Shown here: piece after piece, positions 700 through 6,222 of the stretch
How the letters are laid out: each line of letters begins with the position of its first letter
How positions within the stretch are numbered: the stretch's first letter is position 1
DNA from: Methanoculleus oceani
Lineage (GTDB): Archaea > Halobacteriota > Methanomicrobia > Methanomicrobiales > Methanoculleaceae
Length of the DNA: 64,000 bases
Direction of reading: 5' to 3'
NCBI RefSeq assembly: GCF_023702065.1
Contig: NZ_QFDM01000001.1
Coordinates: 744,001-808,000, forward strand
Made by a program: the position numbers and the translations under genes
Notes under the pieces: model-generated
The model's database searches: none
What the model was told of the DNA's origin: nothing
The model's input: only the letters and a program-made list of their open reading frames with translations

Positions 700-1398
700 T
701 TATTCTTTTTTCACCCTGCCCATCAACTGGTCCATCATCTCCGGCGCCCGATCGCGCAGGCCGAGCCCGACAATGATGGCGATCGCCGCACCGAGGCCGA
801 GCCCGACTCCCCAGGCGACCGGGACGACGAAGACGTAGATGATCGAGAGGTCGATCAAGAGCTGCTGGAGCGCGAGGATGGCGACGACGAAGTAGAGGAA
901 CGCCCGCAGCAGCATCGTGATCAGTCCGAAACCCTGGATCTGCTGCGTCTCACCCATGTTCTGGAGGATGTCTATCAGCCAGTCGATCAGGATGATCCCG
1001 ATGACGAGGATCAGGATGAACGCGACGATGTTCGGGATGTAGGCCACGATGGCCGCGACCGCCGCTGTCAGGGTCGGGATCTGCAGGACGCTGACCGCTG
1101 CGAGGATCGCGATGAGGTAGATGAACCAGCGGACGATGAGGTCGAAGAGGCGGCTTATGTTCATCGTGGATCGTTCAATCTGTTTGCCGGCCGATGTCTT
1201 CCGGAGTGCGTCGTCGACACCGAGCCGGTCGAGGAGCTCGGCAACGACTCTGCCGAGGATGCGTCCGATGATCCAGCCGATGATGAGGATGATGATCGCT
1301 GCAATGAGGTTTGGTAGAAACAGAATGACGTTACGGGCCAGTTCTTCAACCGGCTCAAATGGCGCCAAAATTTGCGCCGTGAGGTCTCCATTTGCCAC
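700..1398 (-). CDS. MscS-like conserved TM-helix membrane protein
   Basis: This 232-residue protein has about five hydrophobic segments (roughly residues 25-48, 88-108, 118-142, 158-180 and 188-215). It carries two amphipathic repeats typical of the conserved TM helix family related to small mechanosensitive channels: a glycine-rich GWIIGRILGRVVAELL segment, then a region with predicted pore helices. No large beta domain of MscS is present. The start is GTG at 1398. A TATA box on the minus strand at 1430-1439 puts the transcript start near 1408, giving a leader of about ten bases. A channel or membrane-stress role is family inference. Confidence 0.7.
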   Translation of the reverse strand: MANGDLTAQILAPFEPVEELARNVILFLPNLIAAIIILIIGWIIGRILGRVVAELLDRLGVDDALRKTSAGKQIERSTMNISRLFDLIVRWFIYLIAILAAVSVLQIPTLTAAVAAIVAYIPNIVAFILILVIGIILIDWLIDILQNMGETQQIQGFGLITMLLRAFLYFVVAILALQQLLIDLSIIYVFVVPVAWGVGLGLGAAIAIIVGLGLRDRAPEMMDQLMGRVKKE

Positions 1399-1515: not shown

Positions 1516-3771
1516 CTACTCCGTGATTCCCGCAGCCGCCGGGACGCGGGAGTGCCCGGTGTAGCGGTACATGAGCGCGAGAACCGCCGGCATCACGACG
1601 ATCGCGCCCACGAGCGAGAACCCGACGGTGATGACCGTCACGATCCCGAAGTTGCTGATGATGTTGAATGTCGAGAGGGTGAGCGCCGAGAACCCGAAGA
1701 CTGTCGTCAGCCCGGATACCGTGATGGCCGTCCCGATCTTCTGCACGGCGGTCTGGATGGCGTCGAGGAACTCCATGCCCCGGGCGAGTTCCTCCTCGCA
1801 CCGTTCCATGATCAGGATGGTGTACTCGGACGCGACGCCGATCGTCATCGACCCGAGGACGGCCGTCAGCGGGGTGTAGTCGAGGCCGAGGAGATACATG
1901 ATCGCTCCGTTCCAGCCCACGATGAAGACGATCGGAATGACTGGCGAGACGGCGCCGAATTTCCGGTAGACCAGGAGCAGGAACCCGAGGATGAAGGCGA
2001 ACCCGAGCACGGTCATGAACGTCTTCGACTCGCTGATATCGTCCATGAGGGCAGCGAACATCTCCAGCTGGCCGGTGACCTTCACCGTCACGCCGGCCGG
2101 CGGGTTGTTCCACGCAACGTCGCCCTGTATCCTCCCGATGAGGTCGCGGGCGACGCTCATCTCCATATCGACCGTCGAGAACTCGAGCACCGCCTCCATG
2201 TTCCCGTTGAGGTAACGCTTCAGGGTCGACTCCGGGATCCGGGCGGTGACCTCGTCGATCTCTCCCCTGGTTGAGGGCAGCACCCCGTCGTTGTGCTCCC
2301 GGATCAGGGTTGCGATGCTGGTGACGCCGGTGATCTTGTCGTTATGCTCCTGCTCGTAGACCCCGAACCGATCTATCCAGGCAAGCGTCTCCGGGCTCCG
2401 GACGTCGTCTGCGGTCACGACGACCGGGATGGTGCTTGTTGCCCCCATTGTCCGGGTGATCTTCCCCAGATCCTGGAGGGCGGGCATATCGTCGGGAACG
2501 AAGGTCTTCTCGTCCGCGCTGATGGGGACCCTCTCGTCGAGGTAGTAACCCCCTGCCGCGACCACTGCAAAGAGCATGATGACGGGAAGCGGGTACTTTG
2601 CGACGGTGTAGGCCAAACGTCCGAGGAAGCGGTCATACCGTTCGATGAAGACGTTCCCGGGCTTTGGGGCGGGGTTGGAGGCCGTAGCCGCCTTCGGCCG
2701 GTAGCGGGTGGCGATTGCAAAGACCGGGACGATGATGAGCGCCGCGGTGTAGCAGGAGACGACTCCTATGGTGCAGACGATACCGAAGTCGCCCACCATC
2801 GGCACCGGCCCGAAAAGCATCGCGATGAATCCGAGCGCCGTCGCCGACATCGCGACCAGGACCGAGGGCCCCATCTGCGTGACGGTGGCCCATACGGCCT
2901 CCGGAATCGTGCCGTGCCGGATCTCCTCGTCGAACCGGGCATGGAACTGGATCGCGTAGTCGATCCCGATCCCGATGAGCACCGGGAACGCCCCGATCAC
3001 CACCATGCTGACCGGGATGCCGAAGAGGCCCATGAACCCGAAGGTCATGATCAGCCCGACGGCCACGATCCCGACGGGGAGGAGGCTGTAGCGAACGTGG
3101 GAGAAGAGAAGCATCACCGCGAGGACCATGAGAAGCATGGCCGCAAGGATCAGCATGCCCATCTGCCCCCCCATCTCTTCTTCCATCTCCTTTGAGAATG
3201 CCGGGTTCCCGGAGACCGTGACCGCGAGGCCGGGCGGGGGCTCCGATATGCCGATGGCGGACTCGATGTTCCCGAGGATCTGCATCTGGGCCTCCAGGGA
3301 GACACCCGGCTCGAGGGCGATGACGCTGATCGTCATCAGGTCCGAGGGCAGCATCCTCTCGACCATCTCCGGTGGGGCCTGTCCAATGATCCCGTCGATC
3401 TCCGCTTTGGACGACGGCAGGGTGCCGCCGTTGGCCTGTTTGAGGAGATCGACCACACCGGAGACTTCGTCGACGTAGCGCTCGTTCCTGAGGTCTTCCT
3501 GGAGATTGTCGATATACCTGAGGACATCGGGGTTCCGGACGCTGTCCGCCTCGTAGATGAGCATGATCGCGTCGGAGCCGTAGGTCTCGGTGTAATGGTC
3601 CAGGAGCGCGCCGCGTGGGGTGGACTTGTCGACGTAGGTGTCGTCGCCGGTCTGCATCGTCACCATCGAGAGCCCGAAGAACGCCACGATGAAGACGGCC
3701 GCGGCGACCCCGGCGACGGTCCAGGTGCGGTTGTTGATGGCTGCGGCGAGCCACTCGTACGGGTTCTTCAT
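1516..3771 (-). CDS. RND superfamily exporter, HAE3/MMPL type
   Basis: The 751-residue protein has the RND duplication. TM1 (about 20-37) is followed by a large extracytoplasmic loop and TM2-6. After a linker with TM7 (about 400-420), a second large loop and TM8-12 follow. The charged residue of TM4 is in GIGIDYAIQF, and the matching position in the second half is GVASEYTILIMER, with Glu in place of Asp. The family exports hydrophobic or amphiphilic molecules using the ion gradient; the cargo here is unknown. The ATG overlaps the stop of the upstream CO-dehydrogenase-like gene as ATGA, so the two are translationally coupled and probably act in one process. Confidence 0.88.
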   Translation of the reverse strand: MKNPYEWLAAAINNRTWTVAGVAAAVFIVAFFGLSMVTMQTGDDTYVDKSTPRGALLDHYTETYGSDAIMLIYEADSVRNPDVLRYIDNLQEDLRNERYVDEVSGVVDLLKQANGGTLPSSKAEIDGIIGQAPPEMVERMLPSDLMTISVIALEPGVSLEAQMQILGNIESAIGISEPPPGLAVTVSGNPAFSKEMEEEMGGQMGMLILAAMLLMVLAVMLLFSHVRYSLLPVGIVAVGLIMTFGFMGLFGIPVSMVVIGAFPVLIGIGIDYAIQFHARFDEEIRHGTIPEAVWATVTQMGPSVLVAMSATALGFIAMLFGPVPMVGDFGIVCTIGVVSCYTAALIIVPVFAIATRYRPKAATASNPAPKPGNVFIERYDRFLGRLAYTVAKYPLPVIMLFAVVAAGGYYLDERVPISADEKTFVPDDMPALQDLGKITRTMGATSTIPVVVTADDVRSPETLAWIDRFGVYEQEHNDKITGVTSIATLIREHNDGVLPSTRGEIDEVTARIPESTLKRYLNGNMEAVLEFSTVDMEMSVARDLIGRIQGDVAWNNPPAGVTVKVTGQLEMFAALMDDISESKTFMTVLGFAFILGFLLLVYRKFGAVSPVIPIVFIVGWNGAIMYLLGLDYTPLTAVLGSMTIGVASEYTILIMERCEEELARGMEFLDAIQTAVQKIGTAITVSGLTTVFGFSALTLSTFNIISNFGIVTVITVGFSLVGAIVVMPAVLALMYRYTGHSRVPAAAGITE

Positions 3772-4157
3772 CTGCGCTCCTCCTGCGTGCTCGCCCCGTA
3801 CTCGCCGACGATCGCGAGAGTCACCGCATGGGCGATCTCCGTGTCGTTCCTGCCGGCGGGCTCGATACCGTACTCCTCTGCGATGCGCCGGAGCTTCGCG
3901 GGGTCGAGAATCCGGTATCCCCGGGCGGAGGTCTCCGCCGCTACCGTGAGAACGGACGAGAGCAGGGATGTTGTGATCTCCCCGTCCATGGCGAGACGGT
4001 GGAGCAGGGCAACGGCCCGCCGGTAGTCTGCCGGGGGGAGGAACCCTGCTTCGGTCCAGACCTGGTCGGTCTCCTCGAAATGCGGCTCTTTACAGGGTAT
4101 TTTGTGGTGGGTCGGCCTCCGGCAGGGTCCGGTACTACAGGTGGTTGCGCAGTTCAC
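3768..4157 (-). CDS. Stand-alone mini CO-dehydrogenase N-terminal-like protein
   Basis: This 129-residue protein resembles only the N-terminal part of anaerobic CO dehydrogenase catalytic subunits (CooS). The first residues, NCATTCSTGPCRRP, recall the CooS B-cluster motif C-x2-C-x2-GPCR, followed by another Cys (KIPC). Residues from about 80 on (RGYRILDPAKLRRIAEEYGI, then a segment ending IVGEYG) match the CooS helical region. The C-cluster and Rossmann domains are absent. I chose GTG at 4157 because GAGGAG precedes it by about five bases. ATG at 3989 is a shorter alternative. The reading frame continues open upstream but lacks a good start there. The 3' ATGA overlap with the RND gene suggests a real, translated gene rather than debris. 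Confidence 0.55.
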   Translation of the reverse strand: MNCATTCSTGPCRRPTHHKIPCKEPHFEETDQVWTEAGFLPPADYRRAVALLHRLAMDGEITTSLLSSVLTVAAETSARGYRILDPAKLRRIAEEYGIEPAGRNDTEIAHAVTLAIVGEYGASTQEERR

Positions 4158-4388
4158 GTCTCTCCTCGTTATAAGTGGCTCATCTGTTGGGGGTACTGTT
4201 TCTGTGGGACCGGAGATGAACTTACTGCAACCCGGACGGGGACTGGTACCGGGATCCGGTGCCCGGACAGGATTCTTTGCAGCCGGTTCTCGTGTGCTTC
4301 CCATATCGATCAGTATTGGAGAGTCCGGGGGTTCAAGATTCTCCCGTATATGTACGGGTTTTATATGCGGCAGGGTTCCACACGATGT
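4158..4388. promoter_or_regulatory. Divergent control region between mini-CooS/RND and HTH regulator
   Basis: This 231-base spacer holds the ribosome site of the mini-CooS gene (minus strand, GAGGAG) with a TTATAA just upstream, and the promoter of the regulator. A perfect inverted repeat CCCGTA-TATG-TACGGG (4343-4358) abuts the plus-strand TATA box TTTATATG (4360-4367). That places the repeat over the TFB recognition element, a good position for a repressor or activator site. Confidence 0.55.
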
Positions 4389-5072
4389 ATGCGCAAGATG
4401 ACCGTCGAGGTCTGCCTGAAGGATCCGCTGATGGGCATGCCCCCCGACGCAGAGGATCTCAACCGGGCGGTGAACGACCTCCTGGACAGGGTCGAATCCG
4501 TGAACGTCCTCGAGCTGCTCAAGATGAACTTTGAGCGGGGGGAGGAGACGGTGGTCGCCGAGATCACGATGAAAGAGGGATACACCGCGGACGACCTTGA
4601 GTTCCCGGAAATCCTCGGGTCTCTTGAGGTGCTCAAGGCCGACGGCCGGACCTACACCTGTCTTGTGCGGTACGTCATCCGGGACGAGTTCCTGCTGGAG
4701 AAGATGCGCGAATTCGACCTGGACGTCATCTGGGCCTCCCCCATATACAAGTCCCGCGACCTGTTCGTCCACACCTGCATCGGCGACGCCGAGAACCTGA
4801 ACAAGATCCTCCGTCTCATGTCCACCTACGGGGAGGTCCGAAACGTCATCTTCGAGGAGGCAACCTTTTCCGGGAACGATCCGCTCTCGCGGCTCACTCC
4901 CCGGCAGAGGGACCTTTTGATCGCGGCAAAACAGTATGGCTACTACGAGTATCCGCGCAGGATCAACAGCCAGCAGCTCGCGGAGAAGGTGGGCATCAGC
5001 AAAGCCACCGCGATCGAGCACCTGCGAAAGGCAGAGGCACGGCTCATCTCCACGCTCCTTGCAGGGTACTGA
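4389..5072 (+). CDS. Bacterio-opsin activator-type HTH regulator
   Basis: The 227-residue protein has an N-terminal sensor-like region (about 1-150) and a C-terminal HTH_10 domain: LTPRQRDLLIAAKQYGYYEY, then LAEKVGISKATAIEHLRKAE. This is the hallmark of archaeal Bat-type regulators. The start ATG at 4389 (or 4398) follows a TATA box by about 25 bases, so the mRNA is nearly leaderless. Longer in-frame extensions upstream run through the promoter and were rejected. It is divergent from the mini-CooS/RND operon and is an obvious candidate regulator of it (inference). The ligand is unknown. Confidence 0.8.
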   Translation: MRKMTVEVCLKDPLMGMPPDAEDLNRAVNDLLDRVESVNVLELLKMNFERGEETVVAEITMKEGYTADDLEFPEILGSLEVLKADGRTYTCLVRYVIRDEFLLEKMREFDLDVIWASPIYKSRDLFVHTCIGDAENLNKILRLMSTYGEVRNVIFEEATFSGNDPLSRLTPRQRDLLIAAKQYGYYEYPRRINSQQLAEKVGISKATAIEHLRKAEARLISTLLAGY

Positions 5073-5466: not shown

Positions 5467-6222
5467 ATGACTTCGGAGATTGTCCCCGGGCTCCGGGCTC
5501 TCGGAATGAACGAGTACGAGGCGAACGTCTACTCCACGCTCGTCGGGTTGCAGAAAGCGACCGCGCGGGATATCCATGAGGTGAGCGGGGTCCCCAGGGG
5601 ACGGATCTACGAGATCTTGAACGACCTGGCCCGGCGGGGGTTCATCGGTGTGGAAGAAGGTTCTCCGGCCTCCTACTACGTGCTCGACATCGACGTGGTC
5701 TTCGATCGGCTCAAAGACGATTACATCCGTTCTCTCAATGAGACACGCGAGGCGTTGAAGAGCCTCTCGGTCAAACCGCGCCTCCCCCCTGTCTCGTTCT
5801 TCATCCTCCGGAGCGGCTGGGCAATCGACAACCATATCTCCTCGCTCTTCCGCCGGGTGAAGAAGAGCATGGTGATCCTCTGCCACAACCCCGAATTTCT
5901 CCAGAGATACTACACGGTCATCAAGCCGCTTGAGAGGAAGATCGATCTCTACGTGGTCGTACGGAGAAAGGAGGACTACGCAGACATCAACCTTCCCATC
6001 TACGAGGCCGGAGGAGCCGTCATCGACCTCCTGGACGTCCGGCCGGTGAAAGAGTCCGTGGTAGACGGCGTGAGGACGGACGAGTGTGCGATCCTGGCCG
6101 ACGGCCGGGACTTCCTCGCCATCGCCACCGCGGGGTCCGGGCGGCACGCGGTGATCGGCTCGGAGATGCCGCTCATCAACTATCTGCAGAAGACGATCGT
6201 CGAGCGGCTCACTGAGACGTGA
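5467..6222 (+). CDS. TrmB-family transcriptional regulator
   Basis: The 251-residue protein starts with a winged helix (about 1-75): LRALGMNEYEANVYSTLVGL, then ATARDIHEVSGVPRGRIYEI, the classic TrmB DNA-binding signature. A middle dimerisation helix (about 85-110) follows. The C-terminal domain resembles the phospholipase D-like TrmB effector fold (VKKSMVILCHNPEFLQRYY, then VVVRRKEDY). In the family the effectors are sugars or other metabolites; here the ligand is unknown. ATG at 5467 was chosen because the winged helix begins directly after it. The longer open frame from 5194 has no homologous content. GTTGCAAC just upstream could be an autoregulatory site. Confidence 0.83.
   Translation: MTSEIVPGLRALGMNEYEANVYSTLVGLQKATARDIHEVSGVPRGRIYEILNDLARRGFIGVEEGSPASYYVLDIDVVFDRLKDDYIRSLNETREALKSLSVKPRLPPVSFFILRSGWAIDNHISSLFRRVKKSMVILCHNPEFLQRYYTVIKPLERKIDLYVVVRRKEDYADINLPIYEAGGAVIDLLDVRPVKESVVDGVRTDECAILADGRDFLAIATAGSGRHAVIGSEMPLINYLQKTIVERLTET

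Follow-up and report, generated by a model that had tools for sequence, protein, structure and literature searches.

The closest described relatives of the protein reported here are CooS, the catalytic subunits of Ni-containing CO dehydrogenases (CODH; TIGR01702 / PF03063), proteins of 630-700 aa in which two helical modules, A and then B, follow the B/D-cluster cysteines. The small protein, at about 130 aa, has both modules in common with CooS, whereas it lacks the cluster ligands and the catalytic domain, carries the modules in reverse order and is encoded in a different genomic context. The mini-CooS (Techtmann 2012, placed in clade G) is likewise short and CooS-like, but keeps a complete metal-cluster motif (PMC8776680) where the small protein has none. 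At least one CODH survey dropped hits below 400 aa (PMC8776680) and would therefore not have seen the small-protein family. A 2026 study of CODH genomic context reports that clade B CODH is linked to transporters, and mentions neither RND exporters nor TrmB regulators (PMC13056359).

AcrZ and WatS1 are small proteins known to bind RND pumps (PMC10710835). As small proteins serving a specific RND pump they resemble the present case by analogy only: AcrZ, of 49 aa, is a membrane helix and WatS1 has 55 aa, whereas the protein described here looks soluble and is enzyme-derived; the known small RND modulators do not share this origin. Literature searches on CooS permutation, on HAE3 in methanogens and on RND with TrmB returned nothing on the small-protein family, and no HAE3 operon with a CooS-derived partner. 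To our knowledge, no substrates of archaeal HAE3 RND pumps have been reported.

The locus and its conservation

The features of interest in the window, a 64,000-nucleotide stretch of the Methanoculleus oceani genome, are collected in Table 1. The initial annotation had described a 129-residue reading frame with its own ribosome site and an ATGA overlap with an RND gene. All of this was confirmed; the minus strand had gone unstated.

Table 1. Positions of the small gene, its modules, signals and neighbours in the window
Feature	Position	Strand	Remarks
Small gene, stand-alone protein, very probably a permuted CooS helical domain	3768..4157	-	GTG start, 129 aa
N-terminal tail, residues 1-27	4077..4157	-	Cys-containing, not conserved, predicted disordered
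Module B, residues 28-77, EETDQVWTEAGFLPPADYRRAVALLHRLAM	3927..4076	-	matches CooS segment T..vWk.aGi.Pr..dREiVEamHR.hMG
Module A, residues 80-121, GYRILDPAKLRRIAEEYGI...GRNDTEIAHAVTLAIVGEYG	3795..3920	-	matches CooS GYqItD..KL..iA.eyGI...Gr...EiA...a..leEyG
GAGGAG ribosome-binding site of small gene	4162..4167	-	kept in most of the genus
ATGA, small-gene stop TGA / RND start ATG	3768..3771	-	-4 overlap, 19/19 genus loci measured
HAE3-type RND exporter, 751 aa	1516..3771	-	TIGR00921
Small MscS-like channel	700..1398	-	follows the RND gene in most genus members
Inverted repeat CCCGTATATGTACGGG, 16 bp	4343..4358	.	candidate operator
HTH_10 (bacterio-opsin-activator-like) regulator	4389..5072	+	divergent from small gene
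TrmB-family regulator, 251 aa from likely start	about 5467..6222	+	

A TATA-like TTATAA adjoins the ribosome site of the small gene and raised the possibility of an untranslated N-terminus. This was rejected: the GTG is the sole start to retain the conserved ET..VW motif, which other starts lose, and translation from the GTG thus stands. The neighbouring exporter scores 518.8 bits against TIGR00921 (cut-off 351.9); it is a clear member of the HAE3 family and the only HAE3 transporter above that cut-off in this genome. The palindrome CCCGTATATGTACGGG, a candidate operator, separates the small gene from the HTH_10 gene that diverges from it. This genome contains a single copy, and many loci of the genus with the divergent HTH_10 gene conserve it. 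The TrmB regulator is linked to the small-gene/RND unit in other families too.

Of 35 Methanoculleus genomes, 29 carry the small gene, among them all that are at least 90% complete; the six genomes without it are fragmented assemblies with 80-87% completeness and 330-660 contigs. Across the genus the reading frame keeps the same start, stop and overlap, and pN/pS of the core is 0.42, indicating purifying selection. Genome-wide profile searches located small genes in three of six families, and within the sampled phylum the matches outside Methanomicrobiales are almost all full-length CooS. The initial annotation had allowed for a decaying fragment, should relatives carry a full-length CooS at this position. 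None was found among the relatives' loci examined, every one of which holds the small gene; full CooS genes lie elsewhere. The protein is indeed a partial CooS homologue, and decayed copies do exist (second copies in L034 and L036-L038; also L057 and L067), but the constant frame under selection, the permuted modules described below and a full CooS-like gene elsewhere in this genome argue against the small gene being a decaying remnant of a full CooS gene. This explanation, which we consider scarcely credible, was rejected on the conservation of the small gene and the selection acting on it.

The full CooS-like gene of this genome is a divergent one on another contig (L080:4742-6673; 440 bits against PF03063), and is followed on its 3' side by a sulfite/nitrite-reductase-like gene and a TrmB-family regulator. 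In the decayed copy at L067:5985-6668 the C-terminus of the small gene is fused by a deletion to the second half of the RND gene.

CooS helical modules in a different order

The relationship to CooS and the non-catalytic nature of the protein, both proposed in the initial annotation, were supported. PF03063 (Prismane) matches residues 66-127 with an E-value of 6.7e-4, and a PDB search with the small protein finds CODH at E 2e-4. No Pfam or NCBIfam model is above its cut-off for the small protein: PF03063 gives 18.9 bits against a gathering score of 27 bits, and TIGR01702 gives 12.7 bits against a cut-off of 478 bits. A family profile of residues 79-121, spanning module A, finds CODH in the PDB with E 3.5e-8, and the module A profile scores 45.9 bits on CooS (shuffle maximum 6.6). 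The module B profile reaches 31.9 bits on CooS, where the maximum from about 1,000 shuffles is 12.3, and in most CooS sequences it lands on one common site with 20-32 bits. In the PDB module B alone is weak, with CODH at E 0.036 and outranked by repeat-summed protein A hits; its match, residues 181-213 of 6t7j, is the sole hit with a single significant stretch. CooS and the small protein have the module A motif in common, as well as the T, W, P and H of module B, which are invariant. The homology of the helical modules is statistically significant and supports a CooS-derived origin.

The small protein ends after module A and has no catalytic C-cluster domain. Conserved, collinear B-/D-cluster cysteines are also missing, as is the complete metal-cluster motif of a mini-CooS; there is no conserved Cys set. 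An AlphaFold prediction for the small protein, made with four sequences, is all-helical at low confidence (pLDDT 65). A Foldseek search of the PDB gave nothing significant, CODH ranking second with E 1.4; for a permuted domain such a search says little.

The initial annotation had the cysteines followed by the next helical segment of CooS. CooS-like helices are present as it said, but they are not in CooS order: CooS has module A then B, the small protein B then A. In a genome-wide search the family profile falls on many CooS genes in two pieces, profile positions about 43-98 upstream and 2-40 downstream, and these swapped two-piece matches occur in many independent genomes with E-values from 1e-5 to 7e-7. 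Exchanging A and B in silico in 25 CooS sequences raised the median single-domain score of the family profile from 34.7 to 59.6 bits, and the examples listed among the reordered alignments cover positions 2-97 of the 97 in the model. The order of the modules, B-A and not A-B, led us to reject the plain N-terminal truncation of CooS implied by the initial annotation. The small protein is very probably a permuted derivative of the CooS helical domain, and with its relatives it is best read as a new, non-catalytic protein family of Methanomicrobiales in which the CooS helical domain is circularly permuted. Such a protein would descend from the CooS helical region just after the B/D-cluster cysteines, and the B-A order would result if a tandem duplicate (A-B-A-B) lost both its ends. 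A REIVExxH-like helix flanks module A on both sides in CooS, and these helices may have provided the crossover point.

A second stand-alone type with the CooS order A-B and 81-112 aa was found in Methanomicrobiales with a profile built from the weaker hits. The 101-aa protein of L134 and its relatives in L144-L147 comprise A, a spacer and B; in the shorter members (L127-L132, L148-L152) the end of A is retained, followed by B. Without reordering, the collinear profile covers positions 3-61 of 68 on CooS and scores 19.2 bits, where shuffles reach at most 5.1. The genes for the shorter proteins run up to or into the first codons of another HAE3 RND, around 47% identical to that of the window, with a TetR gene divergent; the 4-nt overlap with the RND gene is seen in this type also. 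Recoding at an in-frame TGA in the 96-aa hits was considered and rejected, the TGA being the stop of the A-B gene just before the RND. The native-order 101-aa proteins at L134:2574-2876, L144:3776-4081 and L146:3733-4038 have a divergent TetR gene adjoining and no adjacent RND.

If module A alone came from CooS and module B were a chance look-alike, the small protein would be an A fragment with a new N-terminus and there would be no permutation. Module B is short and has only the weak PDB score given above, and an A-like helical motif is found also on the tail of an archaeal TatA (L138). Set against this, the module B scores recur at one site in most CooS sequences and lie above the shuffle maximum, the swapped matches come from many independent genomes, and the collinear small proteins share the same B, joined to A by a CooS-like spacer. 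A chance origin of module B thus appears improbable to us. It is rare for part of an enzyme to be circularly permuted in nature and to have both collinear and permuted stand-alone descendants in one archaeal order. The L138 protein (G234:C37:66470-66562) is TatA-like, and its tail, KLEKVAKDLGVETEGRSDEEIARDI, is similar to module A of CooS.

The N-terminal cysteines

The initial annotation took CATTCSTGPC as a CooS-like N-terminal Cys set that might bind one Fe-S cluster and act in redox sensing. The cysteine columns were judged on an alignment of 24 sequences of the genus. TGPC occurs only in the window and L002, where an 8-residue deletion has made it; the other 22 sequences have extra residues between 'TG' and 'PC'. 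The three main columns hold Cys in 22, 18 and 19 of the 24 sequences respectively, and the L086 ortholog has none in its N-terminal tail. Outside the genus, families that carry this operon have unrelated N-terminal tails and lack these cysteines. The spacing differs as well, C-x2-C-x4-C in CooS against C-x3-C-x4-C in the small protein, and AlphaFold predicts residues 1-24 to be disordered (pLDDT below 50). Variable cysteines, a TGPC created by deletion, different spacing and a disordered tail together mean that the Cys set is not the CooS cluster B site.

To judge from the sequences, an Fe-S cluster in the small protein is unlikely. In favour of N-terminal cysteines that bind one cluster and sense redox state for the pump, small proteins of the genus have up to five Cys within the first 30 residues, and the first ten residues are conserved in the genus (pN/pS 0.29). 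The uneven columns, the ortholog with no cysteine, the lineage-specific deletion behind TGPC, the absence of the cysteines from other families with the operon and the spacing unlike that of CooS all weigh against it, and leave such a sensor highly improbable. Both the CooS-like Cys set and the redox sensor were therefore given up, the cysteines being neither CooS-homologous nor conserved.

Association with HAE3 pumps and possible roles

The initial annotation had proposed a search for the same gene beside RND genes in other Methanomicrobiales, and this linkage was found. Both types of small gene are mostly directly upstream of, and coupled in translation to, particular HAE3 RND clades with TrmB or TetR nearby, and none of 21 other HAE3 RNDs of the order, several of them from the same genomes, has a small gene upstream. 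In the RND tree the A-B-linked pumps form one clade (100*), and the B-A-linked pumps need 3 changes against 21.8 with shuffled labels. Almost all of these methanogens have HAE3 RNDs (48 of 51 genomes sampled in the class). Many of these pumps lack the small gene, which HAE3 function in general therefore does not require. Tandem RND pairs were observed in four genomes (L034, L036, L037 and L038); in each, one small gene is intact and the one preceding the second RND has decayed. The unit has thus been duplicated, and this suggests that one small protein acts for both RNDs. At about ten loci the small gene is accompanied by a regulator with no adjacent RND, and the gene thus occurs in other contexts than beside a pump.

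The genomic linkage gives an even chance, in our estimate, that the small protein is a cytosolic, non-metal protein partner or modulator co-regulated with the pump. A regulator would switch on the small protein and the pump together, and the small protein, in the cytosol, would then partner or modulate its pump through protein-protein contact. Modulation could concern assembly of the pump, its activity or the presentation of a hydrophobic substrate, and would use the helix-packing surface of the old enzyme with no metal centre. The association suggests an enzyme fragment recruited as a partner of pumps. Rather more tentatively, the CODH helical domain may have been cut out of the enzyme, undergone circular permutation in one lineage, and become a cytosolic subunit or gatekeeper dedicated to Methanomicrobiales HAE3 RNDs. 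If this recruitment is real, the small domain exists in nature in both collinear and permuted form, and RND pumps have a partner of a new class. The family offers the first handle that we could find on the control of archaeal HAE3 RND pumps.

The small protein might instead bind the linked TrmB or TetR regulator (or its ligand) and tune its own operon, the pump being only the target. Nearly every locus has TrmB or TetR adjoining the small gene, even where no RND is adjacent, and the divergent promoter region holds a unique, conserved 16-bp palindrome. The loci with no RND leave room for such a role, or for a pump encoded elsewhere. On the other side, TetR regulators already possess a ligand-binding domain, and the small protein persists while the type of regulator changes (TrmB, TetR, and HTH_10 inserted in the genus). 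In some genera (L047, L048 and L050) TrmB is convergent at the far end of the RND. What was shown to predict the small gene is the RND clade, not the regulator, and a regulator adjoining the operon it controls needs no contact with the product. We therefore consider the co-regulator role rather unlikely, and favour the pump partner.

Several of the loci with no adjacent RND have other neighbours. L058 and L064 contain TrmB and an FMN-reductase-like neighbour, and L133, L134 and L144-L147 have TetR with the small gene. In L072 and L078 the permuted small gene and TrmB lie beside molybdate/tungstate-type ABC genes.
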